Origin: an uncultured Chlorobiaceae bacterium
GTDB lineage: Bacteria; Bacteroidota; Chlorobiia; Chlorobiales; Chlorobiaceae
Direction: 5' to 3'
DNA length: 33,807 bases
Assembly: GCA_903824295.1 (NCBI GenBank)
Contig: CAIJWE010000114.1
Coordinates: 1-33,807 of the forward strand
Below are positions 21,879-33,807 of the stretch, one piece after another. The notes below the pieces were generated by a model. That model saw nothing but the letters and a program-made list of their open reading frames with translations, searched no databases and was not told the DNA's origin. The translations under genes were made by a program, and so were the position numbers. Every line of letters starts with the position of its first letter. The stretch's first letter is position 1.

Positions 21879-22202
21879 TTATGCAAATCCAAGCCACACT
21901 GCGAGCGCCCGGTTAACGGCAAGCATCAAGGCATCATCAAGTCTTCCGAAAGTCGGTCCAATTTTGTCACGCGGGACGGTCTGAACCTTGTCAACCATTA
22001 CCTGTGATCTTTTTTTCAGATTGTTACCCTCTGTCGGCTCAATCATAATCCTGAATAACGGGACTGACCGCAATTCACTTGTCACCGGCAGAATGGTCAG
22101 CGAGGGGTGTTCAGAAAAAAAATCAGACTGAACAACAACTGCAGGGCGAGGCTTACCGTAATCACCCTGTAATGCAATGGTAACCAGATCACCTCTCTTC
22201 AT
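21879..22202 (-). CDS. MazF/PemK-family toxin (mRNA interferase)
   Basis: The 107-aa product begins MKRGDLVTIALQGDYGKPRPAVVVQSD-like (split: MKRGDLVTIALQ, then GKPRPAVVVQSD). This is the classical MazF/PemK N-terminus, and ILPVTSEL and KKRSQVMVDKVQTVPRDKIG are the second half of the fold. Family members are sequence-specific endoribonucleases of type II toxin-antitoxin systems. An upstream in-frame ATG at 22211 exists, but the start at 22202 overlaps the antitoxin stop as ATGA and gives the family N-terminus. The pair lies at the border of the mobile zone. Confidence 0.88.
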   Translation of the reverse strand: MKRGDLVTIALQGDYGKPRPAVVVQSDFFSEHPSLTILPVTSELRSVPLFRIMIEPTEGNNLKKRSQVMVDKVQTVPRDKIGPTFGRLDDALMLAVNRALAVWLGFA

Positions 22203-22420
22203 GCCTCCCAACCCTCGCGGTCCGCAGCTTCATCAAGAAAATCAAGCAGTTCCTTTTCATGCGAATCATTTTTGACCAGCAGAGACTGCCGCCTGCACTC
22301 CTCCGCAAAACCGGAGCGACGTGTATCGGGAACCCATATCTGTATCGGTCGCATCCCCTCCGTGCGTAATTTCGCCCTGTACTTATGCACCCGTTCAAGA
22401 ACTCCGCCCATGTGTCTCAT
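22199..22420 (-). CDS. MazE-family antitoxin
   Basis: The 73-aa product carries the antitoxin MazE pattern HKYRAKLRTEGMRPIQIWVP, DTRRSGFAEECRRQSLLV and an acidic C-terminus (LLDFLDEAADREGWEA) suited to toxin binding. The stop overlaps the toxin start by 4 bases. Two ATGs lie near the beginning (22420 and 22411). The inverted repeat at 22446-22476, about 25 bp upstream, is a plausible autoregulatory operator. Confidence 0.85.
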   Translation of the reverse strand: MRHMGGVLERVHKYRAKLRTEGMRPIQIWVPDTRRSGFAEECRRQSLLVKNDSHEKELLDFLDEAADREGWEA

Positions 22421-22791: not shown

Positions 22792-23362
22792 ATGGAAGGA
22801 CGACTGATCGGTTATGCCAGGGTCTCAACTTCGGGTCAGGAACTGAACCTGCAGCTTGATGCTCTCAAACATGCTGGCTGTAAAAAGCAGCATATCTTTA
22901 CCGAGCAGATAAGCGGGTCGAAAGCTGAACGACCGGGACTTACCGAGTGCCTGAAAGAACTGAAAGAAGGTGACACGCTCATCATCTGGCGGCTGGACCG
23001 CCTTGGTCGCTCACTTCGGAACCTGATCGATATTGTCGAACAGTTGCAGAAAAGGGGAGTAGGCTTCTGCTCTATCAATGACGGCGGCCTTGATACCACT
23101 ACGGCATCCGGTGAGATGATTTTCAACATCTTCGGCACTCTTGCCCAATTTGAGCGCGGTCTGATTCAGGTGCTTACCCATGCAGGCCTGACGGCAGCCA
23201 AGGGCAAGAGGAAGAAAAGGTGGGAGACCGAAAATTTCGAAAGACGATCCGAAAGTGCAGATGGCCAAAAAAATGAGCAAGAATATGAACATCAGCATCG
23301 GCGAGATCTGTGACACGCTGAAGATTTCACGGGCGACTTATTACCGGTATTTAGGATTGTAG
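22792..23362 (+). pseudogene. Serine recombinase (resolvase/invertase family), frameshifted
   Basis: The catalytic domain is recognisable: LIGYARVSTSGQELNLQLDA with Ser12, then WRLDRLGRSLRNLID, and FNIFGTLAQFERGLIQ. After about base 23205 the frame breaks. The original frame runs to 23313 as nonsense. The +1 frame reads GRKGGRPKISKDDPKVQM and then a complete helix-turn-helix ending RATYYRYLGL, with its stop at 23360-23362. A one-base insertion near AAGGGCAAGAGGAAG explains this. FERGLIQVLTHAG also departs from the usual FER.L..ERT.AG. It is either a decayed gene or a sequencing/assembly error. Confidence 0.85.
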
Positions 23363-23449
23363 GGGGAGCTATTATTATACTTGCTAAGTACGATCTTGTT
23401 CGGGAGCACTTTCAACTTTCAAATAAAAGTCAAAGGTTATTACCAATGA

Positions 23450-23487
23450 GGGGTCGCTTCAGGAAACGGATTTTAAAGTACGTTAAG
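23450..23487 (+). repeat. Tn3-family terminal inverted repeat (38 bp, left end)
   Basis: It begins GGGGTCGCTTCAGGAAACGG and ends TACGTTAAG. This matches the Tn3/Tn21 repeat form, which starts GGGGTC and ends CACG(C/T)TAAG over 38 bp. The outer end (GGGG) faces left. The tnpR stop lies inside the repeat, as is common in this family. It resembles the repeats at 33204-33241 and 33513-33550. Confidence 0.85.
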
Positions 23488-24040
23488 GATTATTGGATGC
23501 CGGAATCCACCGGTAAAGCGTCGGAACAGATACCCCGAGATTTTTTGCCACATCCCGTGGTGGAATACCGTTAGCCAGCAGCTTTTTTGCTGAAAGAATT
23601 TTACTGTCCGTCATCAGGCGCTTGCGGCCACCCTTCCTGCCAAGTTGGCGGGCCATTTCCAATCCTGCACGAGTACGCTCAACCGTCAGTTCCCGCTCCA
23701 TTTCAGCGAGGCTTGCCATGACGTGAAAGAAAAAACGGCCTGATGGCGTACCGGTATCAATCGCATCGGTAATACTTTTGAACTGAACCCCTTGTTTCTG
23801 AAGTCCGGCGACCAAATCAACCAAGTGCTTTACGCTACGTCCAAGTCGATCAAGTTTCCAGACAACAAGCGTGTCTCCCGTCCGCATCAGTTCCAGTGCC
23901 TTGGTAAGTCCAGGGCGTTCGGCCCGTGTACCACTCACTTTATCCTCGAAGACCTTTTCACATCCAGCCTTGGTTAATGCCTCAATCTGATGATTAAGAT
24001 TTTGATCCTGTGTTGAAACCCTGGCATAACCGATCAGCAT
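23483..24040 (-). CDS. tnpR: Tn3-family resolvase TnpR
   Basis: TnpR is the serine recombinase that resolves cointegrates formed by Tn3-type transposition. The 185-aa product appears intact. It has the nucleophile Ser9 in LIGYARVSTQDQNLNHQ, DTLVVWKLDRLGRSVKHLVD, the ASLAEMERELTVERT segment, GRKGGRKRLM and a C-terminal helix-turn-helix (IPPRDVAKNLGVSVPTLYRW). It is transcribed away from the transposase fragment, and its C-terminus ends inside the terminal repeat. It may still be able to act in trans. Confidence 0.93.
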   Translation of the reverse strand: MLIGYARVSTQDQNLNHQIEALTKAGCEKVFEDKVSGTRAERPGLTKALELMRTGDTLVVWKLDRLGRSVKHLVDLVAGLQKQGVQFKSITDAIDTGTPSGRFFFHVMASLAEMERELTVERTRAGLEMARQLGRKGGRKRLMTDSKILSAKKLLANGIPPRDVAKNLGVSVPTLYRWIPASNNP

Positions 24041-24198
24041 CTCTTTCTCCGTTTATTTTCTCAATACTCATTTAAAATACGATATATTAAGAATCAATAT
24101 CAAGAACTATTTTCGAGAAGCCTAACTCCATTGTTTTTGATAGTTCGATTTTCCCTGACAAGTATTCTCAAAAAACCTCGTTTTTAAGAGGAGTATCA

Positions 24199-24665
24199 AT
24201 GCCACGTCGTTCAGTTATTTCAGCATCAGAACGCGACAGATTGCTGGTTATGCCGAATGCTGAAGATGAGTTGATCCGGCACTATACTTTCAATGATTCG
24301 GATCTGTCGATTATTTTTCAGCATCGGGGTGCTGAAAATCGCTTGGGGTTTGCCGTGCAACTCTGCTATATGCGTTATCATGGAATGATAATACCTCCAG
24401 ACGTTGAACCGTTCGCTCCACTGCTTCGTATTGTTGCAAAACAGCTTAAGGGAAAAATATGGCCGACGCGCTGAAACACGCAGAGATCATTTAATAGAAT
24501 TGCCATCATTTTTTGGCTTCAAGGCATTTACTAATAGGCATTTTTGCCCTTCTGTACAAGGGTTAGATAATTTGGCATGGCAAACCGATAAGGGTATTGT
24601 GCTTGGCTGAAAAACTTCTCGATAGTTTACGCCATCAGCATATCATTATTCCAGCGATAGATACT
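24199..24665 (+). pseudogene. tnpA: Tn3-family transposase TnpA, N-terminal part, frameshifted
   Basis: The start is good: AAGAGGAG precedes the ATG. The first frame gives ERDRLLVMPNAEDELIRHYT, then FQHRGAENRLGFAVQLCYMR and ends prematurely at 24474 after AKQLKGK. A second frame continues with EKYGRRAETRRDHLIELPSF and LAWQTDKGIVLG (to 24610). A third continues AEKLLDSLRHQHIIIPAID to about 24660. These are successive parts of the N-terminal (DUF4158) region of Tn3 transposases. At least two indels are therefore present before the break near 24660. Confidence 0.88.
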
Positions 24666-25010
24666 TCGGATTGATGTGACCGGTACATTATCCATGGTTA
24701 CCAGCCTTGAATCGCTGTCCATCCGATGATGATGTCGTACCGTCACCCCAGTTTTGTGCAAACGGATGCTGGAGTTGAGCATTGACCAGTTCAGCAAGAG
24801 CAGCGGAGTATGTTTCATCTCGAATGTGCCAAGCTTGCAACCAAGAGAGCTTTGAGTATGTCGTGCCCGGACAGCATTCAGCCATTTTCGTCAGACAGAG
24901 GTTTATCGCATCTGCCAGAATGGCTGTCAGAAGCAGTGAGGTATCTTTGGCCATATCGCCAATCTTGAGGTATGTAAACCGGCGGGAGCAGCCAGTTCAC
25001 GCATCAACTA
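24650..25010 (-). pseudogene. tnpA: Inverted internal fragment of the Tn3-family transposase
   Basis: On the minus strand the segment reads [20 protein letters not shown], then [40 protein letters not shown] and [17 protein letters not shown]. It continues after a frameshift to GHINPKY at the very end. These are conserved blocks from the central/catalytic half of Tn3 transposases. It faces the opposite way to the N-terminal fragment and abuts it at about 24660, so an inversion with deletion has occurred. Upstream codons to ~25010 also resemble the family in shifted frames. Confidence 0.88.
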
Positions 25011-25071
25011 TGTGTTTTTCTTGTAGACAATTTTTTGAAAAGAAAGAAGAAATTTTTAATATTGACAGTGT

Positions 25072-25077
25072 TATAAT
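25072..25077 (+). promoter_or_regulatory. Candidate -10 box of the peptide ORF
   Basis: TATAAT lies 30 bases before the ATG at 25107, preceded by an AT-rich stretch. A TTGACA sits at 25062-25067 but only 4 bases away, too close to be its -35 partner. If used, transcription would start near 25084 and exclude the in-frame TTG at 25077 as start codon. Confidence 0.4.
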
Positions 25078-25106: not shown

Positions 25107-25301
25107 ATGGAAAGTATTAGTCAGAAGAAAGAACAGAAAAAATGGCACGCCCCATTAGTGATTACGTTAAAGAAAGCCACTCATGGAAAGGCACAGGTGC
25201 TTAGCCAATGCCGGGCATCATTACAGCAATCCACCACATCCAGTAATTATTACGGGTGGTGTACTGCCCATTATTACGGATGCTCTTATTGTTCTTCCTG
25301 A
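25107..25301 (+). CDS. Candidate RiPP precursor peptide (64 aa) for the downstream radical-SAM cassette
   Basis: No family is recognised. The first ~29 residues are leader-like: charged SQKKEQKK, then WHAPLVITLKKATHGKA. That aromatic-x2-Pro-x-hydrophobic pattern followed by T-x-G-K is like leaders bound by PqqD-type domains (for example the YxxPxL motif of lasso precursors). The rest is polar and rich in Cys (35, 52, 59, 62), Tyr, Gly and Trp, ending SSNYYGWCTAHYYGCSYCSS. A TATAAT box sits upstream; no strong ribosome site is seen. Caveat: a +1 frame open at 25183-25386 reads LANAGHHYSNPPHP and could be the original continuation if the gene has suffered a frameshift. Random ORF is not excluded. 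Confidence 0.4.
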   Translation: MESISQKKEQKKWHAPLVITLKKATHGKAQVLSQCRASLQQSTTSSNYYGWCTAHYYGCSYCSS

Positions 25302-25821
25302 TCAGGATAAATTATTAATAAATATTGAATTAACATTCAATCACGGTGTCATGGTCGCTTGTGTTTGCGTTTTTTTTTACGGGTAAGTCTGGAGAGACTT
25401 TACATCTAAAACTTAAGTTTTAGTAACTATTGTTCACCTGTATAAGGTTCTTCTTGTTTGAAAAAAGGAACGTCAAATGCGCGAGGTAAATTCGGCGTAT
25501 TTAGACTCTTTTTTTTGATGTATATCATGAAACAGTGTAAAACCAAACAAACGGTATGTACCATTGAGCCAAGGAAGTGGCAGAAGCGGGGGATTACGGT
25601 CGTGAAGGGGCGAGATGTTAAAAGGCAAGACGTCTGAAGAACGTGTCGGTATAGGGAGAACATGAGTACATCAGGCTAGACATATGGCGGATGCAATGGG
25701 AAAGCTTGGGGAAACCAGAACTGTACTGAATTCCAATGGTAAGGCCAGTGCGGCTCGTTATTAATGGTGAGTGGGCTAGTTATTGGCCATAAAGCCTGTT
25801 GAGAATTCGTATTCATTTTAA
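25302..25821 (+). other. 520-bp stretch without a supportable gene
   Basis: Short ORFs exist on both strands but none resembles a known protein or has a good start. The part at ~25555-25800 is purine-rich with many short G and A runs and several complementary short words (GGCC repeats at ~25750-25790, an AGACGTCT palindrome near 25630), followed directly by a terminator-like hairpin. It could be a structured RNA or the eroded remnant of a mobile intron; I could not match it to either. Confidence 0.3.
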
Positions 25822-25858
25822 GCCGTCAGTCAAGGGCTGGCGGCCTATATTTTTATTT
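25822..25858 (+). terminator. Intrinsic-terminator-like hairpin
   Basis: GCCGTCAG and CTGGCGGC form an 8-bp stem (one G-U pair) with a 7-base loop, followed by CTATATTTTTATTT. It lies between the candidate precursor and the maturation enzymes. It could end the upstream transcript or allow partial readthrough, giving more precursor than enzyme mRNA. Confidence 0.65.
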
Positions 25859-25860
25859 AG

Positions 25861-26061
25861 TTGGTTCGCATCAATAATGTTGAGGTGCTTCAAAATATAT
25901 ATACAGTATCTGTTGATGCTGGGTTTGGTTGTTACCAGATCTTCGAGACCGCTACGGAGCCAGTAGTGCAAGTTGGAGAATTACCGGTGGGCACTTTCTT
26001 TGATGCGCTGCAGGCTCACTGCTCAAGGTCGGAGCCACTGTACGTGGCATTTTATATCTAA
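25861..26061 (+). CDS. Unrecognised 66-aa ORF directly ahead of the first radical SAM gene
   Basis: It opens at a TTG right after an in-frame TAG (a GTG at codon 9 is an alternative), and there is no convincing ribosome site. The product is mildly acidic with two cysteines (DAGFGCYQIFE and QAHCSRSEPLYVAFYI) and has no leader/core look. It ends 16 bases before the radical SAM ATG, so it may be co-transcribed. It may be a small cassette protein, an alternative precursor, or the 3' remnant of a larger gene cut off by the rearranged region upstream. Confidence 0.35.
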   Translation: MVRINNVEVLQNIYTVSVDAGFGCYQIFETATEPVVQVGELPVGTFFDALQAHCSRSEPLYVAFYI

Positions 26062-26077
26062 CCTTCAGCACTTTATT

Positions 26078-28072
26078 ATGTCAAAGCAACTTGTCGATTA
26101 TCGCCTGCCTCTTGAGGTGCATTTCGATCTGACATACCGATGTAACAATAACTGCCGTCATTGCTGGCTGAGAATTCCAGCTTCTGACCCTGAAAAAAGC
26201 AGGGAACTATCATTTGAAGAGATCAGGCGGATTGTGGATGAAGCGAGGGCTCTCGGGACGCGCCGCTGGTCACTTTCTGGCGGCGAACCAATGCTTCGAT
26301 CTGATTTTGTTGACATTTTTGACTATATCACGTCCAAAGCTATCTCCTATTCTCTCAATACTAACGGTACGTTGATGACGCCAGCTCTTGCCCGGCTGCT
26401 CAAGCGCAAAGGCAAGGTGATGGTTGCTCTCTACGGGGCTACCAGAGAGACCTATGACCATGTTGCCCGTCATCCCGGTGGCTTTGAGCTGGCAATGCAG
26501 GGGTTTCGCTACCTTCAGGAGGCAGGTGCCGACTTTATCGTGCAACTTGTTCCCATGAAGGCGAACTGGCATGAATGGGAGCAGATGACAGAGTTTGCAA
26601 AATCATTAAGCACGGTTTGGCGTGTCGGGGCGCCCTGGTTCTATCTCTCCTCTTCTCAGGACACTGAGATCAATGCTGCAATTGCCCGCCAGCGTCTTGA
26701 TCCCCGCGACGTGGTGGCGCTCGACAAACCTAGCCTTGCTGAAGATGATGATGAACAAGACCACCAGTGCGGCCATACTCAAGGTGACGGACGGCTGTTT
26801 GCCAGTTGCATAGCTGGCCGGCGCGATTTCCATATAGATCCTTATGGAGGTATGAGCTTCTGCTCGTTTGTAAAAGAACCCTCCATGCGCTACAATCTTC
26901 GCTCCGGAACCGTTCGTGAAGGGTGGGAAGAGTTTATTCCATCGCTTGCCAACCGGGTGTTTGACGGTGCCGAGCACCGGGAAAACTGCGGTTCCTGCGA
27001 TCTCCGCAACTATTGCCGCTGGTGTGCCGTCTATGGCTGGCTGGAGCATGGCCGCTTTTCAGCGCCGGTGGAGCATCTCTGCGACGTTGCCCGTGAGAAC
27101 AAACGCTTCAAGCAGGAACTGCGCACGCACCACCGCCGCTTTTTCACTATTGCCGGCATGACCATCAGGCTTGACAGTGACCTGCCGATTGGTGAAGAAA
27201 CCTTTCACCCAACGCTTGATGCCTTTTGTACGGATGAGCCCGGTGATGATATGGTGACCATACACCACCATTTCGATTTGCCTGATCTCAAGAGCAAAGA
27301 GTTTGGCATCGAGGTGTACCGCAAGGCGCCATGGGCGATTTTTGAACAGGGAGGCTCCTTTGTCTATCTGGGCATAGCTGATCAGCCTGATGACCATGCG
27401 CTTCATGGCGCAGCGACGATTTCCGATACCCATACCGAGCTGCGCATCTACAATGACGAGGTACAGAAGGAGTTGTGGCATCGCGGCGGCCTCCGTTCGC
27501 TCACCATGTTTCTTTCCGACCAGCTTGTTCTTGCAAGGCTGCTGGCCGATCGCCAGGGGTGTCTCTTCACGGCGGCAGCCGTCAACATCAATGGCCGCGG
27601 CCTGCTTATTGTGGGAAGTGAAGCTGACCAGACATCCATCATCAAGCACCAGATGGATGCCGCATCAACAGGCGGCGGAACGCTGGAAATCCTCTCTGAC
27701 CGCACTGCTCTTGTGCGTCGTACCGAGGTTGGCTGGCAATTGTATGGTGCTTGGTGCCACGGCGATGAAGAGCAGGTGTCGGCAGGTTCGGCTCGGCTGT
27801 GTGCCATCTGTTGTGTTAAAAACGGTGCAGAAAACAGCATAATTCTCCTCACCGATGGTGAAGAGGTGCTTCGCCGCCTGCTTGCATGCCTTGTTGTACC
27901 TCTGGTGATCGGCGCATGGTGGCAGCATACAGTTGACGGCGTCAGGTCGATGGTCGAGCAGATTCCATGCGCTGCGGTCTGCTTCGACATGAGTGGCACC
28001 ATTGACGCTGACCTCCATACACTGGCGGAGGAGTGCGATTCCCTCCTATCTTCTGAATCAATAACCGAATAA
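26078..28072 (+). CDS. Radical SAM/SPASM maturase fused to a degenerate HPr-kinase-like domain
   Basis: Residues 1-~350 are a radical SAM enzyme: Cys22-X3-Cys26-X2-Cys29 binds the 4Fe-4S cluster, SGGEPML is the SAM motif, and a SPASM region follows (CGSC...YCRWC...HLC) for auxiliary clusters. Residues ~355-664 resemble HprK-fold proteins of RiPP clusters (FTIAGMTIRLDSDLPIG; GWQLYGAWCHGDEEQVSAGS). In them the P-loop GPSGxGKS is expected, but here it reads GSEADQTS (from Gly513), so ATP use is doubtful. From memory this half matches the conserved protein ScmC of the SynChlorMet cassette, normally a separate protein. The start is the ATG at 26078, since the upstream frame lacks homology. It ends 7 bases before the next gene. 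Confidence 0.85.
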   Translation: MSKQLVDYRLPLEVHFDLTYRCNNNCRHCWLRIPASDPEKSRELSFEEIRRIVDEARALGTRRWSLSGGEPMLRSDFVDIFDYITSKAISYSLNTNGTLMTPALARLLKRKGKVMVALYGATRETYDHVARHPGGFELAMQGFRYLQEAGADFIVQLVPMKANWHEWEQMTEFAKSLSTVWRVGAPWFYLSSSQDTEINAAIARQRLDPRDVVALDKPSLAEDDDEQDHQCGHTQGDGRLFASCIAGRRDFHIDPYGGMSFCSFVKEPSMRYNLRSGTVREGWEEFIPSLANRVFDGAEHRENCGSCDLRNYCRWCAVYGWLEHGRFSAPVEHLCDVARENKRFKQELRTHHRRFFTIAGMTIRLDSDLPIGEETFHPTLDAFCTDEPGDDMVTIHHHFDLPDLKSKEFGIEVYRKAPWAIFEQGGSFVYLGIADQPDDHALHGAATISDTHTELRIYNDEVQKELWHRGGLRSLTMFLSDQLVLARLLADRQGCLFTAAAVNINGRGLLIVGSEADQTSIIKHQMDAASTGGGTLEILSDRTALVRRTEVGWQLYGAWCHGDEEQVSAGSARLCAICCVKNGAENSIILLTDGEEVLRRLLACLVVPLVIGAWWQHTVDGVRSMVEQIPCAAVCFDMSGTIDADLHTLAEECDSLLSSESITE

Positions 28073-28079
28073 GGAAACA

Positions 28080-29273
28080 ATGAGTTACGTACAAAGGCTG
28101 GAGCCACACGAGTTCACGCTTGGGGGTGGTAAAAAGCTGCTCTTGGGCCAGATTGATATTGAGCTGACCGAGCGCTGCAACAACAACTGCGTACACTGCT
28201 GCATTAACCTGCCGGAACATGATCCTGATGCTCTCAAGCGCGAAATGAGCACGGATGTGGTCAAAAAAATCTTGACGGATGCTGCAAATCTTGCCTGCAT
28301 GACGGTCCGTTTTACCGGTGGAGAGCCGCTTCTGCGTCCCGATCTGGCGGAACTCTATCTCTTTGCCCGGCGTCTTGGGATGATGGTTGTTCTTTTTACA
28401 AACGGCCGTCTGATTACCCGTGAGCTTGCTGAGCTACTCGCAAAATATCCGCCGGGGCGTGTTGTGGAAATTTCGGTATATGGCATGAGTGCCGAATCGT
28501 ACGATCGGGTTGCCGGTCATGCCGGAGCTTTTGTTGAGTTTCGCCGGGGTATTGAGCTGCTGCTTGAGTACAAGATTCCCTTTATTGTCAAAGCTCCAAA
28601 GCTCCAGTTCCTGAACGATGAACATGAGCAGTTTGAAGCGTGGGCAGCAACAATTCCGGCTATGGACAACATTCCCGGCTACTCCATTAATTTTGATCTT
28701 CGCTCCCGTCGAGATAATCTGGCAAAAAATACCCATATCATCACGCTTCGTGCCACACCCGAAAAGACGGTGGCTTTGCTCTCCCGTAATCCGGGTTACT
28801 TGAGCGATATGGGGCAGTTTTGCGCAAAGTTTATGAGGCCTGCGGGCGACAGGCTCTTCAGTTGCGGCGCTGGACACGGAACCTGTATTGATGCTTATGG
28901 CCAGGCGCAGGTTTGCCTGCCTCTACGCCATAAACACTACAGTGTTGATCTCCAAGAGGTAAGCCTGAAGCGAACTCTCGAAGAGATGTTTCCTGCCATG
29001 TGTGAGATGAAAGTAACCAACCCTGACTATCTTCGCCGCTGCGCCGTCTGTTTTTTGCACGGGCTTTGCGAGCAGTGCCCGGCAAAGTCGTGGGCGGAGT
29101 ATGGCACCCTCGACACACCGGTGGAGTACCTCTGCGAGGTTGCCCATGCTCAGGCACGTTTTCTTGGTCTCCTGAACGAGCATGAACGGGCTTGGGAGGT
29201 CGGGGATGCAAAGGAGCGCGTCGCCGCTTTTGTTGCCCAACACTGGCCGGATGGTCAAACGGCAGAAGGATAA
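28080..29273 (+). CDS. Radical SAM/SPASM peptide maturase
   Basis: The 397-aa product is PqqE-like. It has Cys33-X3-Cys37-X2-Cys40 (TERCNNNCVHCC) for the SAM-cleaving cluster and RFTGGEPLLRPDL as the SAM motif. The SPASM region has CGAGHGTCIDAYGQAQVC, CAVCFLHGLCEQC and YLCEVAHAQ. SPASM clusters in characterised relatives support C-C, C-S or similar crosslinks on peptide side chains. The spacing in the middle block is CX2CX5CX2C. AAGGAA lies 2-7 bases before the ATG, and the gene follows the previous one by 7 bases. From memory it corresponds to one of the two SynChlorMet enzymes ScmE/ScmF. Substrate is unknown. Confidence 0.88.
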   Translation: MSYVQRLEPHEFTLGGGKKLLLGQIDIELTERCNNNCVHCCINLPEHDPDALKREMSTDVVKKILTDAANLACMTVRFTGGEPLLRPDLAELYLFARRLGMMVVLFTNGRLITRELAELLAKYPPGRVVEISVYGMSAESYDRVAGHAGAFVEFRRGIELLLEYKIPFIVKAPKLQFLNDEHEQFEAWAATIPAMDNIPGYSINFDLRSRRDNLAKNTHIITLRATPEKTVALLSRNPGYLSDMGQFCAKFMRPAGDRLFSCGAGHGTCIDAYGQAQVCLPLRHKHYSVDLQEVSLKRTLEEMFPAMCEMKVTNPDYLRRCAVCFLHGLCEQCPAKSWAEYGTLDTPVEYLCEVAHAQARFLGLLNEHERAWEVGDAKERVAAFVAQHWPDGQTAEG

Positions 29274-29313
29274 TAGTTTTCATATCATGAATTATTAAAA
29301 CAACATACTACTT

Positions 29314-29610
29314 ATGGAACTGACACTTGAGCAGATCATTGTACCCTCAGAGGATATTGTGGCTCGTCTTATTGAAGATGACCTGATTATTGTTCCTCTG
29401 GTTGCCGGCATTGGCGATGCAGATGATGAACTTTATACCCTGAACGAAACCGGCAAGGCTATATGGTCGCTCCTTGATGGAGAAAAAACATTGGGAAGTA
29501 TTGCTGAAGAGCTGAGCCGGGAGTTCAATGCAGCTCCCGGTGAAATTGAGCAGGATCTGCTTGGACTGGCAGGTGAGCTGCTTCTACGGAATATTGTTGT
29601 TGCCCGTTGA
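29314..29610 (+). CDS. scmD: PqqD-family RiPP recognition element protein
   Basis: The 98-aa product has the PqqD fold pattern. An N-terminal strand region is followed by DELYTLNETGKAIWSLLDGE, where the LNETG.AIW motif is diagnostic, and helices TLGSIAEELSREFNAAPGEI and QDLLGLAGELLLRNIV. Such proteins bind the leader of a precursor peptide and present it to radical SAM partners. It sits between two SPASM enzymes. The symbol follows the SynChlorMet cassette naming from memory; orthology was not tested. Confidence 0.85.
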   Translation: MELTLEQIIVPSEDIVARLIEDDLIIVPLVAGIGDADDELYTLNETGKAIWSLLDGEKTLGSIAEELSREFNAAPGEIEQDLLGLAGELLLRNIVVAR

Positions 29611-29635
29611 GGCTCCCTCTCTGAGGCAGTTCGTC

Positions 29636-30142
29636 ATGAGCAGCGCTTCCTATGTACAGACGGGGAAAAAGCCCTATACGCTTTCGGGTCTCGGGCTTGC
29701 CATGATGATGAAGGAGGTGCTTAAAAAACGGGCGCAGTTCCGCTTTATTGCGCTTGGTTTGAGTATGTCGCCCTTTATTCGCGACGGCGATGTGCTGACC
29801 ATTTCAGCGATTGCATCTCCGCTCTGCGTGGGAGATGTTGTTGCCTTTATCAGCACAGATCGCACAAACCTTGTTGTGCACCGCATTGTGCAGCTCTCGT
29901 CAGCGGGCTATTGCATCAAGGGCGATAACAACAGGAGGGCGGATGGATGGATAGAGGCTTCAAGTATTCTTGGCCGTGTTGTTCGGGTAGAACATCGTGA
30001 CCGTCAGGTAAGGGGTGGCCTTGGTGTTGAGCGCTGTCTCATTGCATGGCTGTCGTATCGTGGCTTGCTGTCGCCGATCACCCGGCTGTTGTGGGGCAAA
30101 ATAAAGAGGTGTAACGAGATCATGATGAACAAAAATAATTAA
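29636..30142 (+). CDS. S24/S26-family peptidase (signal-peptidase-like), probable leader or precursor processing enzyme
   Basis: The 168-aa product carries the S26 box GLSMSPFIRDGDVL with candidate nucleophile Ser43. The VVHRIV box has His82 where bacterial signal peptidases have Lys, and IKGDNN follows. The Ser-His arrangement is the archaeal/ER (Sec11-like) type. No clear N-terminal membrane anchor is seen; a weak hydrophobic stretch lies near the C-terminus (CLIAWLSYRGLLSPITRLLW). The frame opens at 29528 inside the PqqD gene; the ATG at 29636 is preferred. In this setting it could remove the leader, since the exporter has no peptidase domain. Confidence 0.8.
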   Translation: MSSASYVQTGKKPYTLSGLGLAMMMKEVLKKRAQFRFIALGLSMSPFIRDGDVLTISAIASPLCVGDVVAFISTDRTNLVVHRIVQLSSAGYCIKGDNNRRADGWIEASSILGRVVRVEHRDRQVRGGLGVERCLIAWLSYRGLLSPITRLLWGKIKRCNEIMMNKNN

Positions 30143-30150
30143 ACCTTGTT

Positions 30151-31284
30151 ATGAGACAGCTTACAACCATTGACATTAAAGATTTTCCTCTCTGGGAAAA
30201 AATGAAAGAGCATCGTAGGCTTTTTTCGTTTGATCTTGAAATTACAGCCCGGTGCAATAATCATTGCCACCATTGCTATATCAATTTGCCATCCGGTGAC
30301 CGCGAGGCACGGGCAAAAGAGTTGACAGCGCAGGAAATCAACGACATTGCCGATCAGTCCGTGGCGCTTGGTGCTGTATGGGTGCTTATTTCCGGTGGCG
30401 AACCACTGCTTCGCGATGATTTTGAGGAGATTTATCTGCTGCTTAAAAGAAAAGGGCTGCTGGTTTCGGTCTATACCAATGCCACCCTGATTCGTGATGA
30501 ACATATTGCGCTGTTTAAAAAATATCCCCCACTGAATATTGAAGTGACCATTTATGGCGTTACAAAGGAGACGTATGAACGGGTGAGCGGCAGGCCAGGC
30601 TCTTATGATGCGTTTATGCGTGGCTTGAACCTTCTTTTGGAGGGTGGTATCAAGGTGCGTCTCAAGGCAATGGCGCTTCGCTCAAATTTTCATGAACTTC
30701 CGGCTATGGCTGCGTTTGGCCGTTACTATACCAAAGATTATTTCCGCTTTGATTTTCAACTCCACTTCCGGTTTGACCGTAACGAAGCGCGTAATCTTGA
30801 CATCAAATCGGAACGGCTTACTCCTGACGAGATTGTAGCGCTTGAACGCGGTGACGATGAGCGTTTTCCGGTGCTGGTTGAAGGTTGCAACGAGCTGATC
30901 AATGAAGAGTTCAGCCATGTTGGCTGCGATCACCTGTTTCATTGCGGGTTAGGTAACGGTGGGTTTAACGTCAGTTATGATGGTAAGTTCCGGCTTTGCC
31001 ATTCGCTCTGGGCAGCTGGTACCATCTATGATCTTCGTCAGGGCACAGTGCGCGAAGCATGGGAGAAGTTTGTACCAAAGGTGAGGGATATGCGTTCACG
31101 CCGGGCTGAATATCTGGAAAAGTGTCGTCGCTGCTCCATTGTCAATCTCTGCCTCTGGTGCCCCGCTCATTCCGACCTTGAGACCGGTGAGCTTGATTCG
31201 CCAATAGAGTATTTCTGTCAGGTTGCCCATGCAAGGTCGGCAGCAATTCAGGAAGCTGATGCTGCACGTCAGGAGCAAGCCTGA
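30151..31284 (+). CDS. Radical SAM/SPASM peptide maturase
   Basis: The 377-aa product has Cys35-X3-Cys39-X2-Cys42 (TARCNNHCHHCY), the SAM motif ISGGEPLLRDDFEEIY, and a SPASM region with CGLGNGGFNVSYDGKFRLC, CRRCSIVNLCLWC and EYFCQVAHARS. It is similar in layout to the enzyme at 28080 (both end the SPASM block with P-V/I-EY-L/F-C-VAHA) but clearly not identical. Duplication followed by specialisation is likely. It starts 8 bases after the peptidase gene. This is the third such enzyme in the operon. Confidence 0.88.
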   Translation: MRQLTTIDIKDFPLWEKMKEHRRLFSFDLEITARCNNHCHHCYINLPSGDREARAKELTAQEINDIADQSVALGAVWVLISGGEPLLRDDFEEIYLLLKRKGLLVSVYTNATLIRDEHIALFKKYPPLNIEVTIYGVTKETYERVSGRPGSYDAFMRGLNLLLEGGIKVRLKAMALRSNFHELPAMAAFGRYYTKDYFRFDFQLHFRFDRNEARNLDIKSERLTPDEIVALERGDDERFPVLVEGCNELINEEFSHVGCDHLFHCGLGNGGFNVSYDGKFRLCHSLWAAGTIYDLRQGTVREAWEKFVPKVRDMRSRRAEYLEKCRRCSIVNLCLWCPAHSDLETGELDSPIEYFCQVAHARSAAIQEADAARQEQA

Positions 31285-31313
31285 TTGGCCTCTCTTGTCA
31301 ACAATCAACCGTT

Positions 31314-33134
31314 ATGAGTACTTTCCGGTCGAAACTCGCCCAACTGCGTCGGCAGCTTCCCTTTATTCCTGCGACAGTGAGACTTGTCTGGCAAGCATCT
31401 GGTTTCTGGGTGCTGGTGTGGGTGATGCTCCTGTTGTTGCAGGGAGTGTTGCCGGTAGCCATTGTTTCCATGACAAAGTCTGTTCTTGATACCTTGACGG
31501 CAGTGTTCAAAAAGGGAGGCGGCAACGTACCGGCAAGCAGTAGCATGTTATTGCAAGTTGTTGTGCTTGGTGCTCTGTTGCTTGGTGAAAAAATTCTGAG
31601 CAGTGTGGGGCAGTGGATTCGTACAATCCAGAATGAACGTCTTCAGGATTATATGACAGGATTGATCCACGACAAGGCGCTGGAACTGGATCTTGGCTAT
31701 TACGATTCACCGGACTTTTACGATCGTCTCCATCGGGTACGGATAGATGCGATGCACCGGCCGCTTGAGCTTCTTGAAGGGATGGGGAATCTTGTGCAGC
31801 ACAGCCTTACGCTGGCTGGTATGGCTGTGCTGCTTGTTGCGTATGCACCATGGATTCCTTTGCTGCTGCTTGCAGGAACCATCCCTGCCCTATGGGTCAC
31901 GTTTAGTTATACAGGCAGGCTTGACCAATGGTGGCAACGCAACATTGCTGATCATCGCAGGAGTGATTACTTTGATTGGCTTATTGTCATGCGTGAGGCT
32001 GCTCAGGAGCTGCGGCTGTTTGATTTGGGCAATCATTACCGGGCATCGTATCAGCAATTACGTGCACACCTGAGGGGAGAAAAGCTTGGGATGGAAAAGC
32101 GCAAACTTCTTTCGGAACTTGGTGCGGAAGCTTTTGCCTTGATGACAACAGCCTTTGCCATGTTCTGGATGATCACCCGAACCATTGCCGGTCTGGCTGG
32201 TGTTGGAGACATTGTTCTTTTCTATCAGGCTTTTGCACAAGGGCAGCAACTGATGGCAAATCTGTTGCGCCATACAGGTGAAATCTACCGGAACGTGCTT
32301 TTCCTTGAGAATTTTTTTGACTTGATGCATACACAGTCCAGAATTTCTGATCCTGTAGCTCCTCTTCCCGTGCCCGTCATAAAAGAGAGTATTCGGTTTG
32401 AAGGAGTTGAGTTTCATTATCCTGAGAGTGATCGTCAGCTTCTCCACGATTTTAGTCTGACGCTTAAAGCGGGCGAGATCGCCGCGATTGTTGGTGAAAA
32501 TGGAGAGGGTAAAACAACACTGATTAAGCTTCTTTGTCGATTTTATGATCCTGAACAGGGAAGGGTTACTGTTGATGGTTGTGACCTGCGTGAGTTACGG
32601 CAATCGGAGTGGCGACGTCAGGTAACCGTACTCTTTCAGGAACCGGTTCGCTATAATGTGACAGTGGGTGAGAATATTGCTCATGGTGATATTACCGGCA
32701 ATCCGCTTCCGGCGGATATTCTGAGGGCTGCTGATGCTTCCGGAGCCTATGATATTATCACTCGGTTGCCGAATGGTTTTGATACGCTTCTTGGCAAGTG
32801 GTTTGGTGGTGCCGAGCTGAGTGCCGGAGAGTGGCAACGGGTAGCGCTTGCCAGAGCTTTTCTGCGCAATGCACAACTTATCATTCTTGATGAACCCACC
32901 AGTATGCTTGATGTATGGGCTGAAGCCAGATGGTTTTCGCGGTTTCGTGAGCTTGCCGCTGGATGCACCGTGTTGATTATCAGCCATCGACTCACCACAA
33001 CCATGCAGGCAGACGTTATTCATATTATGCGTGAAGGAGGAATAACGGAATCAGGGACCCATAAAGAGCTGATGAACTTGAAGGGGAGCTACTATAAGGC
33101 GTGGGAAAGCAGGGGTGATACACCGTCATCATGA
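31314..33134 (+). CDS. ABC-type peptide exporter (fused membrane and ATPase domains, no C39 peptidase)
   Basis: The 606-aa half-transporter has an N-terminal membrane domain with about six segments (to ~residue 330) and a nucleotide-binding domain. The latter has Walker A GENGEGKTT from Gly394, a Q-loop (VLFQEPVRYN), the signature LSAGEWQ from Leu502 (a variant of LSGGQ), Walker B LIILDEP with Asp526-Glu527, and the H-loop His558 (ISHRLTT). There is no N-terminal C39 peptidase, so the leader must be removed by another protein. It is last in the operon, 29 bp after the third radical SAM gene. Homodimeric export of the modified peptide is inferred from context. Confidence 0.9.
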   Translation: MSTFRSKLAQLRRQLPFIPATVRLVWQASGFWVLVWVMLLLLQGVLPVAIVSMTKSVLDTLTAVFKKGGGNVPASSSMLLQVVVLGALLLGEKILSSVGQWIRTIQNERLQDYMTGLIHDKALELDLGYYDSPDFYDRLHRVRIDAMHRPLELLEGMGNLVQHSLTLAGMAVLLVAYAPWIPLLLLAGTIPALWVTFSYTGRLDQWWQRNIADHRRSDYFDWLIVMREAAQELRLFDLGNHYRASYQQLRAHLRGEKLGMEKRKLLSELGAEAFALMTTAFAMFWMITRTIAGLAGVGDIVLFYQAFAQGQQLMANLLRHTGEIYRNVLFLENFFDLMHTQSRISDPVAPLPVPVIKESIRFEGVEFHYPESDRQLLHDFSLTLKAGEIAAIVGENGEGKTTLIKLLCRFYDPEQGRVTVDGCDLRELRQSEWRRQVTVLFQEPVRYNVTVGENIAHGDITGNPLPADILRAADASGAYDIITRLPNGFDTLLGKWFGGAELSAGEWQRVALARAFLRNAQLIILDEPTSMLDVWAEARWFSRFRELAAGCTVLIISHRLTTTMQADVIHIMREGGITESGTHKELMNLKGSYYKAWESRGDTPSS

Positions 33135-33275: not shown

Positions 33276-33316
33276 GTCGGGTAACAGCAGCGCATTACTA
33301 CACCGCCGTCCCCTAA

Positions 33317-33350
33317 GAACCGTGCTTGCGACTTTCACCGCACACGGCTC
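33317..33350 (-). ncRNA. Group II intron domain V
   Basis: The 34-nt hairpin begins GAGCCGTGTGCGGTGAAAGT and closes with CACGGTTC. It has the AGC catalytic triad at positions 2-4, the GAAA tetraloop and the two-base bulge region. This is the most conserved part of group II ribozymes, so the identification is firm. Confidence 0.88.
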
Positions 33351-33512
33351 AAGCCTCTGCAAAGGCGCCTTGCGGCACCCGACAACACCACTGTGTTGAT
33401 TTGGTTCTCTGTTTGTTTCGACGGGCCTCAAAGTATTGCGTCCACGCTGGGTCGTGTGGGTTCGCCATGCCCTTGATCTGAACGTGTCGCTTTATAGGGG
33501 TGTCAGCTTCCA
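33349..33512 (-). pseudogene. C-terminal fragment of a group II intron maturase/reverse transcriptase
   Basis: The frame reads TPIKRHVQIKGMANPHDPAW and TQYFEARRNKQ, like the region ahead of the HNH endonuclease domain in intron-encoded proteins, and stops at the edge of domain V. The HNH cysteine/histidine motifs are not seen, so the C-terminus is shortened or belongs to a family without HNH. The N-terminal side is cut at 33512. Confidence 0.6.
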
Positions 33513-33550: not shown

Positions 33551-33807
33551 CAGTTTTAGTAAAATCCAAAAGCCGGGTACGGGTCGGCAAAGGCGGAATT
33601 GGTTGCCGTCCACATTTTAGGTTCCAGTATGCCCATGAGCGCACATCAAAAACGCCAGGTGGAGCATGCTCCAAAACCTCACAGAATTCGTCATTCCCCA
33701 CGATGCCTTTCAGCGCTTTTAAATCTTCAGGCGTACCAAAAGTCATAACATGCGCAAGAAAATGCACTGGATCAGCAAGTTCTTCCTCTGGCGTATTGAA
33801 CCATACA
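33546..33807 (-). CDS. Unidentified passenger gene of the right-hand Tn3-like element (5' partial)
   Basis: The open frame runs off the window. Visible residues include WFNTPEEELADPVHFLAHVM, TFGTPEDLKALKG, EVLEHAPPGVFDVRSWAYWN and a C-terminus ending LLDFTKTA. The stop codon lies inside the terminal repeat. I recall similar small proteins encoded beside AbiEii-type nucleotidyltransferase toxins, which would make this part of a toxin-antitoxin passenger, common in Tn3-family elements; this is not verified. The good codon structure suggests a live gene. Confidence 0.6.
   Translation of the reverse strand, partial: VWFNTPEEELADPVHFLAHVMTFGTPEDLKALKGIVGNDEFCEVLEHAPPGVFDVRSWAYWNLKCGRQPIPPLPTRTRLLDFTKTA

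Follow-up and report, generated by a model that had tools for sequence, protein, structure and literature searches.

A predicted RiPP precursor next to a three-enzyme radical SAM cassette in an uncultured Chlorobiaceae bacterium, a divergent member of a widespread short-peptide family

The open reading frame at 25107-25301 of the window (the whole stretch of 33,807 nucleotides analyzed, contig CAIJWE010000114.1 of an uncultured Chlorobiaceae bacterium) is, as judged from sequence comparisons, a RiPP precursor gene, and a divergent member of a widespread family of short peptides, apparently not previously described. That the radical SAM cassette at 26078-33134 acts on this peptide, and matures it along the full pathway proposed below, is the best explanation as a whole and a likely one. 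The features discussed are the following.

25107-25301, plus strand: predicted precursor peptide gene, 64 aa; ranks first among 977 window ORFs with a 97-sequence profile built without the window peptide (E 1.2e-8), and is the sole match in its own genome
25137-25214, plus strand: conserved leader part K11-R36 (W13, P16, L32, C35), without the usual PEE, from alignments
25215-25298, plus strand: core A37-S64, with Cys52, Cys59-x-x-Cys62 and the C-terminal Ser64, from alignments; putative leader/core boundary
25822-25844, plus strand: terminator-like hairpin between precursor and enzymes, by consensus match only
26078-28072, plus strand: rSAM1, radical SAM/SPASM protein fused to a C-terminal HprK/PEPCK-fold domain (PF04055, 7.1e-24; fold Z 11-12.7)
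27614-27637, plus strand: degenerate Walker A, GSEADQTS, compared with GHSEAGKS in relatives
28080-29273, plus strand: rSAM2, radical SAM protein (PF04055, 4.1e-21)
29314-29610, plus strand: predicted PqqD-like leader-binding protein (RRE) (PF05402, 8.5e-14)
29636-30142, plus strand: archaeal-type signal peptidase I-like protease, probable leader peptidase (TIGR02228, 52.1 bits, cut-off 51.85; PF00717)
30151-31284, plus strand: rSAM3, radical SAM/SPASM protein (PF04055, 6.7e-24)
31314-33134, plus strand: MsbA-like ABC exporter (PF00005, 2.9e-33, over cut-off; best NCBIfam match TIGR02203, under cut-off)

The frame runs from the ATG at 25107 to the stop at 25301, as the first-pass annotation had it, and encodes MESISQKKEQKKWHAPLVITLKKATHGKAQVLSQCRASLQQSTTSSNYYGWCTAHYYGCSYCSS. 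Four Cys and two Trp were counted in agreement with that annotation, but five Tyr and not six; the aromatic-x-x-Pro-x-hydrophobic pattern proposed for the leader is present as W-x-x-P-x-V. Upstream, the frame is open as far as a TTG at 25077. A TATAAT motif is found at 25072-25077, upstream of the ORF, yet a promoter scan reported no sigma-70-type site using it, the closest sites listed ending at 25062-25063 with 9/12 matches. The gene lies upstream of the enzymes and on the same strand, as was claimed, the spacer from its stop to the ATG of the first radical SAM gene (26078) measuring 776 bp (~1 kb in the earlier description). Neither the peptide nor the products of the neighbouring short ORFs 25183-25386 and 25861-26061 match any NCBIfam or Pfam family.

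Relatives of the cassette were monitored by means of rSAM3, which matches 9/98 genomes of the order at 1e-20. Besides the window genome, the cassette resides in G064, G038, G065, G066 (two copies), G057 and G013; of the two other matches, that in G003 is on a contig fragment and that in G046 is a distant protein. Short ORFs sharing the leader adjoin the cassettes in G065, G066 (two) and G057. Six precursor genes in a row, with diverse cores and one of them truncated, are found in G038 (L080:6242-8078), on the strand opposite to the adjoining cassette. The G064 precursor resides on a contig other than that of the cassette; the G013 precursor, found by model, is divergently placed beside its cassette. 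Overall, eight genomes carry all or part of the cassette, and a precursor was found in seven of them; the G003 fragment yielded none. A full-peptide model of five rows matched 6/394 genomes of the phylum at 1e-3, and all six carry the cassette; five had supplied rows to the model, G013 had not. Homologous leaders adjoin homologous cassettes, in line with the earlier view of the ORF as a precursor with a W-x-x-P leader of the PqqD-like/RRE-bound kind tied to the downstream cassette. The lack of a conserved leader near such cassettes had been named as an argument against that view; the leader was found in the relatives.

The rSAM3 alignment was then compared with one genome per species (84,980 species), yielding 136 relatives, the best of which were kept as 79 loci. 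These are distributed over bacteria and archaea: Chlorobiaceae, Geobacter and other Deltaproteobacteria, Omnitrophota, Aminicenantes, Chloroflexi, Acidobacteria, Actinomycetota, Planctomycetota, KSB1, WOR-3, Methanomicrobiales, Methanothrix and others. Genes for PqqD were found in 73 loci, rSAM2 in 69, the signal peptidase-like protease in 63, HprK-like proteins in 56 (Walker A complete in 54), rSAM1 in 46, ABC exporters and NTP_transf_5 proteins in 33 each. A profile of 11 Chlorobiaceae peptides (the window one left out) identified 97 ORFs at E <=1e-3 in 60/79 loci; six of the 79 are from genomes that trained the profile, and 55 of the other 73 have a match. Among the 19 loci with no adjoining precursor, L097 is that of G064, and 12 of the 18 remaining genomes have a precursor elsewhere, so that 73/79 loci lie in precursor-bearing genomes. 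Precursors share the strand of the cassette in 84/97 cases, and the median distance to a cassette gene is 111 bp. A single ORF of Methanoregula (L171:9067-9312) seemingly has two tandem W-x-x-P leaders.

The leader consensus of the family is KKxWxxPxLxVLxRxxPEExVLxxCK. Trp, Pro, the Cys at the leader end and two core Cys are invariant in 89 aligned peptides, core Cys being mostly two to three across the family. The leader Cys could be placed by pattern in 87 of the 94 ORFs of 40-100 aa; exactly three core Cys are found in 57/87, and a terminal Ser or Thr in 85/87. Across the full set of 97 precursors, 82 end in Ser and 7 in Thr. The window peptide has the family invariants W13, P16, C35, C52 and C62 and the Ser/Thr end (S64), and retains L32 and C59 as well; PEE is not retained, and the absence of its near-invariant Glu marks the peptide as a divergent member. 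Radical crosslinking of Tyr and Trp, suggested earlier, finds no counterpart in the alignments, where Cys and the C-terminal Ser/Thr are what is conserved in the core, the Tyr run being peculiar to the window copy.

Membership in the family was assessed with several profiles, the window peptide being left out of the 97-peptide and ten-peptide ones. With the 97-peptide profile the window ORF scores 31.7 bits, the runner-up among window ORFs having E 0.71; the score is higher than those of 10,000/10,000 shuffles, the best of which reaches 13.7 bits. The window ORF is the only match of an 89-row profile in its whole genome (E 7.6e-7). A model of ten relatives' peptides assigns it 21.1-21.7 bits, above 2,000/2,000 shuffles; this model alone is not enough, since a match in G074 (L057), which by reading resembles a transposase fragment, scores close to it (18.4 bits). 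Smaller models perform differently. The window ORF has E 3.7 with a four-row leader model, which did not report it in the search of its own genome at a cut-off of E 10, and the window copy is missed by the five-row full-peptide model at 0.001. Used as single query against 86 family genomes, the window peptide found no clear relative; one weak match, G013:C132:35931-36044 (E 0.49), turned out afterwards to be the precursor of G013.

Core Cys number follows rSAM1: loci that encode it mostly have three, and loci lacking it mostly two. Among 87 precursors scored, at least three core Cys are found in 51/60 from loci with rSAM1, in 3/15 from loci with HprK but lacking rSAM1 (2 of the 3 from loci with HprK at a contig end), and in 11/12 from loci with neither, many of which are on short contigs; with these 12 left out, Fisher p is 3.3e-6 over 75 precursors. 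Per locus, at least three core Cys occur in 34/38 with rSAM1 and 4/13 without (Fisher p 1.2e-4, kinship ignored). Counted here are the window, the loci considered uncut, and L113, L115 and L131, three loci that have neither rSAM1 nor HprK and show no further radical SAM ORF; L138 and loci cut by contig ends were left out. Seven independent pairs on the rSAM3 tree agree in 4.7 cases on average, oppose in 0.0 and show no difference in 2.3 (median p 0.0625; 0.031 before L113, L115 and L131 were added). Within Chlorobiaceae, the cassette of G066, lacking rSAM1, goes with two core Cys, those of relatives with three. The data suggest roughly one radical enzyme per core Cys; exceptions are the 4/38 rSAM1 loci with mostly fewer than three core Cys and the 4/13 loci with at least three in spite of lacking rSAM1.

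The pathway proposed is as follows. The PqqD-like protein (29314) would hold the leader, and rSAM1, rSAM2 and rSAM3 would modify the core at Cys, roughly one enzyme per core residue; the signal-peptidase-like protease (29636) would cut off the leader, and the MsbA-like exporter would ship the product. In most relatives, the HprK-like kinase would in addition phosphorylate the C-terminal Ser/Thr, the likely phosphate site by analogy with the LPP and paeninodin/pseudomycoidin systems compared below, and the nucleotidyltransferase may decorate this phosphate. Because their number goes with rSAM1 presence, Cys are the likely targets, and the modifications may be thioether links, a chemistry that we propose tentatively. 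According to a different reading, the Cys of the Cys-rich core are metal ligands or disulfide partners, and the radical enzymes target other residues, for carbon-carbon crosslinks, epimerization or decarboxylation. SPASM enzymes support varied chemistry, and all radical SAM scores of the window against named NCBIfam maturases are below cut-off among the matches listed, both of which are consistent with such a role; the correlation of Cys number with rSAM1 points instead to Cys as targets, and makes this reading rather unlikely.

The predicted structure of the rSAM1 extension (mean pLDDT 89.3) has the HprK/PEPCK superfamily fold, aligning with PEPCK at Z 12.7 (253 residues, 5.2 Å) and with HprK at Z 11.7 (132 residues, 4.0 Å). 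In L098 and L101 the Lys-Ser of Walker A is kept, and the preceding Gly is gone. The dN of the kinase domain is 0.38-0.48 between the window and four relatives and 0.09-0.25 among those relatives; corresponding figures are 0.38-0.49 and 0.14-0.32 for the signal peptidase, which also changes faster in the window, and 0.13-0.22 and 0.08-0.22 for the N-terminal part of rSAM1. Frames are open in the rSAM1 N-terminal part, rSAM2, rSAM3 and the exporter, with dN/dS of about 0.05-0.14 where dS is computable, ratios that are rough because of nearly saturated synonymous sites. A search of the window's own genome for a PF14907 nucleotidyltransferase found none. Six Chlorobiaceae relatives have at least one each, G065 none on the cassette contig; in L107 (Syntrophus), rSAM1 is devoid of the kinase domain, and no PF14907 was found in the genome. 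Coupling of kinase and nucleotidyltransferase is not strict, as the loop is damaged in L098 yet a PF14907 gene is present elsewhere.

The phosphate branch seems to be lost in the window genome. With Walker A lost and no nucleotidyltransferase found, the product of this genome probably carries radical modifications and no phosphate, and the radical branch, the enzymes of which are still constrained, probably functions alone. One may generalize to a RiPP class that spans bacteria and archaea and employs two to three radical SAM/SPASM enzymes, each forming one link at one core Cys, with enzyme number tracking Cys number, while the HprK-like kinase, in many cases a fusion partner of the first radical enzyme, and the nucleotidyltransferase make up a separable module marking the C-terminal Ser, shed in the window genome and in the Syntrophus relative with the radical module kept; in this complete form the scheme is doubtful.

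The surroundings of the gene are rich in debris of mobile DNA. Between peptide and enzymes, 25877-25969 is a remnant with 77-82% identity to the DNA of a reverse-transcriptase-like ORF. Such pieces, one region of which matches RVT_1 (PF00078), alternate with Nif11-type precursor ORFs in L186, and one is located just 3' of the G064 cassette exporter (L188). Debris of the Tn3 family, comprising two resolvase ORFs and two oppositely oriented transposase pieces, occupies 22792-24954, just upstream of the peptide gene. Further features are a PemK/MazF-type toxin ORF (21882-22211, minus strand) and a group II intron domain match (33276-33352, minus strand) near the contig end, which falls at 33807, downstream of the exporter. 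No second copy of the spacer 25302-26077 was found in the genome. The hairpin and the reverse-transcriptase remnant before the enzymes, and the transposon debris upstream, leave room for an uncoupled or decaying copy. The ORF might accordingly be a relic, descending from a precursor though no product is made here: Walker A, the leader PEE and PF14907 are missing, insertions separate ORF and enzymes, the kinase and signal peptidase parts change faster, and Tn3, reverse transcriptase and group II intron debris is nearby. Against this, the ORF is open and full length, with Trp, Pro and all four Cys, and the radical enzymes and exporter show the low dN/dS reported above. On these grounds we judge a relic improbable, and a functional precursor is preferred.

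The first-pass annotation had seen in the cassette a SynChlorMet-like system (TIGR04248-04252) and in the peptide its missing precursor. The two have in common radical SAM/SPASM proteins, at least two here, and a PqqD-like protein in a Chlorobiaceae-type genome; W..P is also the leader start of peptides at true SynChlorMet loci, and the stand-alone HprK protein of one relative weakly matches ScmC. Scores are nevertheless far below the equivalog cut-offs (ScmE 78.1 bits, cut-off 400; ScmF 93.1, cut-off 400; ScmD 25.2, cut-off 100). The precursor is not missing, ScmA (TIGR04252) being a different family already named in NCBIfam, which the window peptide does not match (no NCBIfam match at E 1). 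The family profile gave no significant match across four genuine ScmF regions (best E 0.58), and the SynChlorMet assignment is highly improbable. Peptides at the true SynChlorMet loci L184:8077-8358 and L181:10659-10940 have a W-x-K-P leader start; the former scores 22.1 bits against ScmA (cut-off 35). A chance ORF, for which shortness and the absence of NCBIfam or Pfam matches could be invoked, is practically dismissed by the held-out profile and the adjoining cassette.

Other known systems are comparable in part. No NCBIfam or Pfam family covers the 89 peptides, whose best recurring matches are weak hits (E up to 0.1) to lasso leader models (rhodolasso 6/89, PadeA 4/89); lasso macrolactam synthetase/cyclase and B2 peptidase are absent from the matches listed for the six cassette proteins and two short ORFs. 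Sactipeptides and ranthipeptides have radical SAM/SPASM maturases and Cys-bearing cores, as the window cassette does, and differ in leader, accessory set and Cys spacing. A PapB-type model scores 56.6 bits with rSAM3, the cut-off being 340. A search of mostly non-subscription literature found nothing joining HprK, RiPP and radical SAM, nor any paper on SynChlorMet or on a PEEAVL motif, and the part of PMC4289311 covered has nothing on the window cassette. The family supplies candidate substrates for a radical SAM cassette that is both widespread and orphan, the leader motif makes such peptides searchable, and the link between enzyme and Cys counts makes enzyme assignment directly testable.

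A kinase acts on the C-terminal Ser in the paeninodin type, which has a W-x-x-P leader (PMC13381572, in part), and hexose on Ser requires a nucleotidyltransferase in pseudomycoidin (PMC9266682, in part); the family has a leader of this kind, and its kinase and nucleotidyltransferase may act in a similar way. The closest parallels come from linear polyphosphorylated peptides (LPP) of Bacillota (Nat Commun 2026, PMC13381572). As far as this source was covered, the LPP accessory set consists of a signal peptidase I-like leader peptidase, a discrete RRE, an HprK-like kinase, an NTP transferase and an MsbA-like exporter; the kinase phosphorylates a Ser of the core, and the RRE assists the peptidase in removing the leader. 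Radical SAM, SPASM and rSAM are words absent from its main text. Accessory set and aromatic-x-x-P leader are common to LPP and the family, the LPP motif being YxxPxVLxHQxIxFETxxS and that of the window WxxPxV ... VLxxC. The window has the peptidase, the discrete RRE and the exporter; the HprK-like fold is there, but its nucleotide-binding loop is lost, intact at 54/79 loci, and the NTP transferase, present at 33/79, was not found in the window genome. Unlike LPP, the cassette has three radical SAM/SPASM proteins, Cys cores and a C-terminal Ser/Thr, and is distributed over many phyla and archaea. Within RiPPs, the family pairs radical SAM modification with an accessory module of the LPP/paeninodin kind, and would bring together two chemistries, the former and C-terminal Ser phosphorylation.
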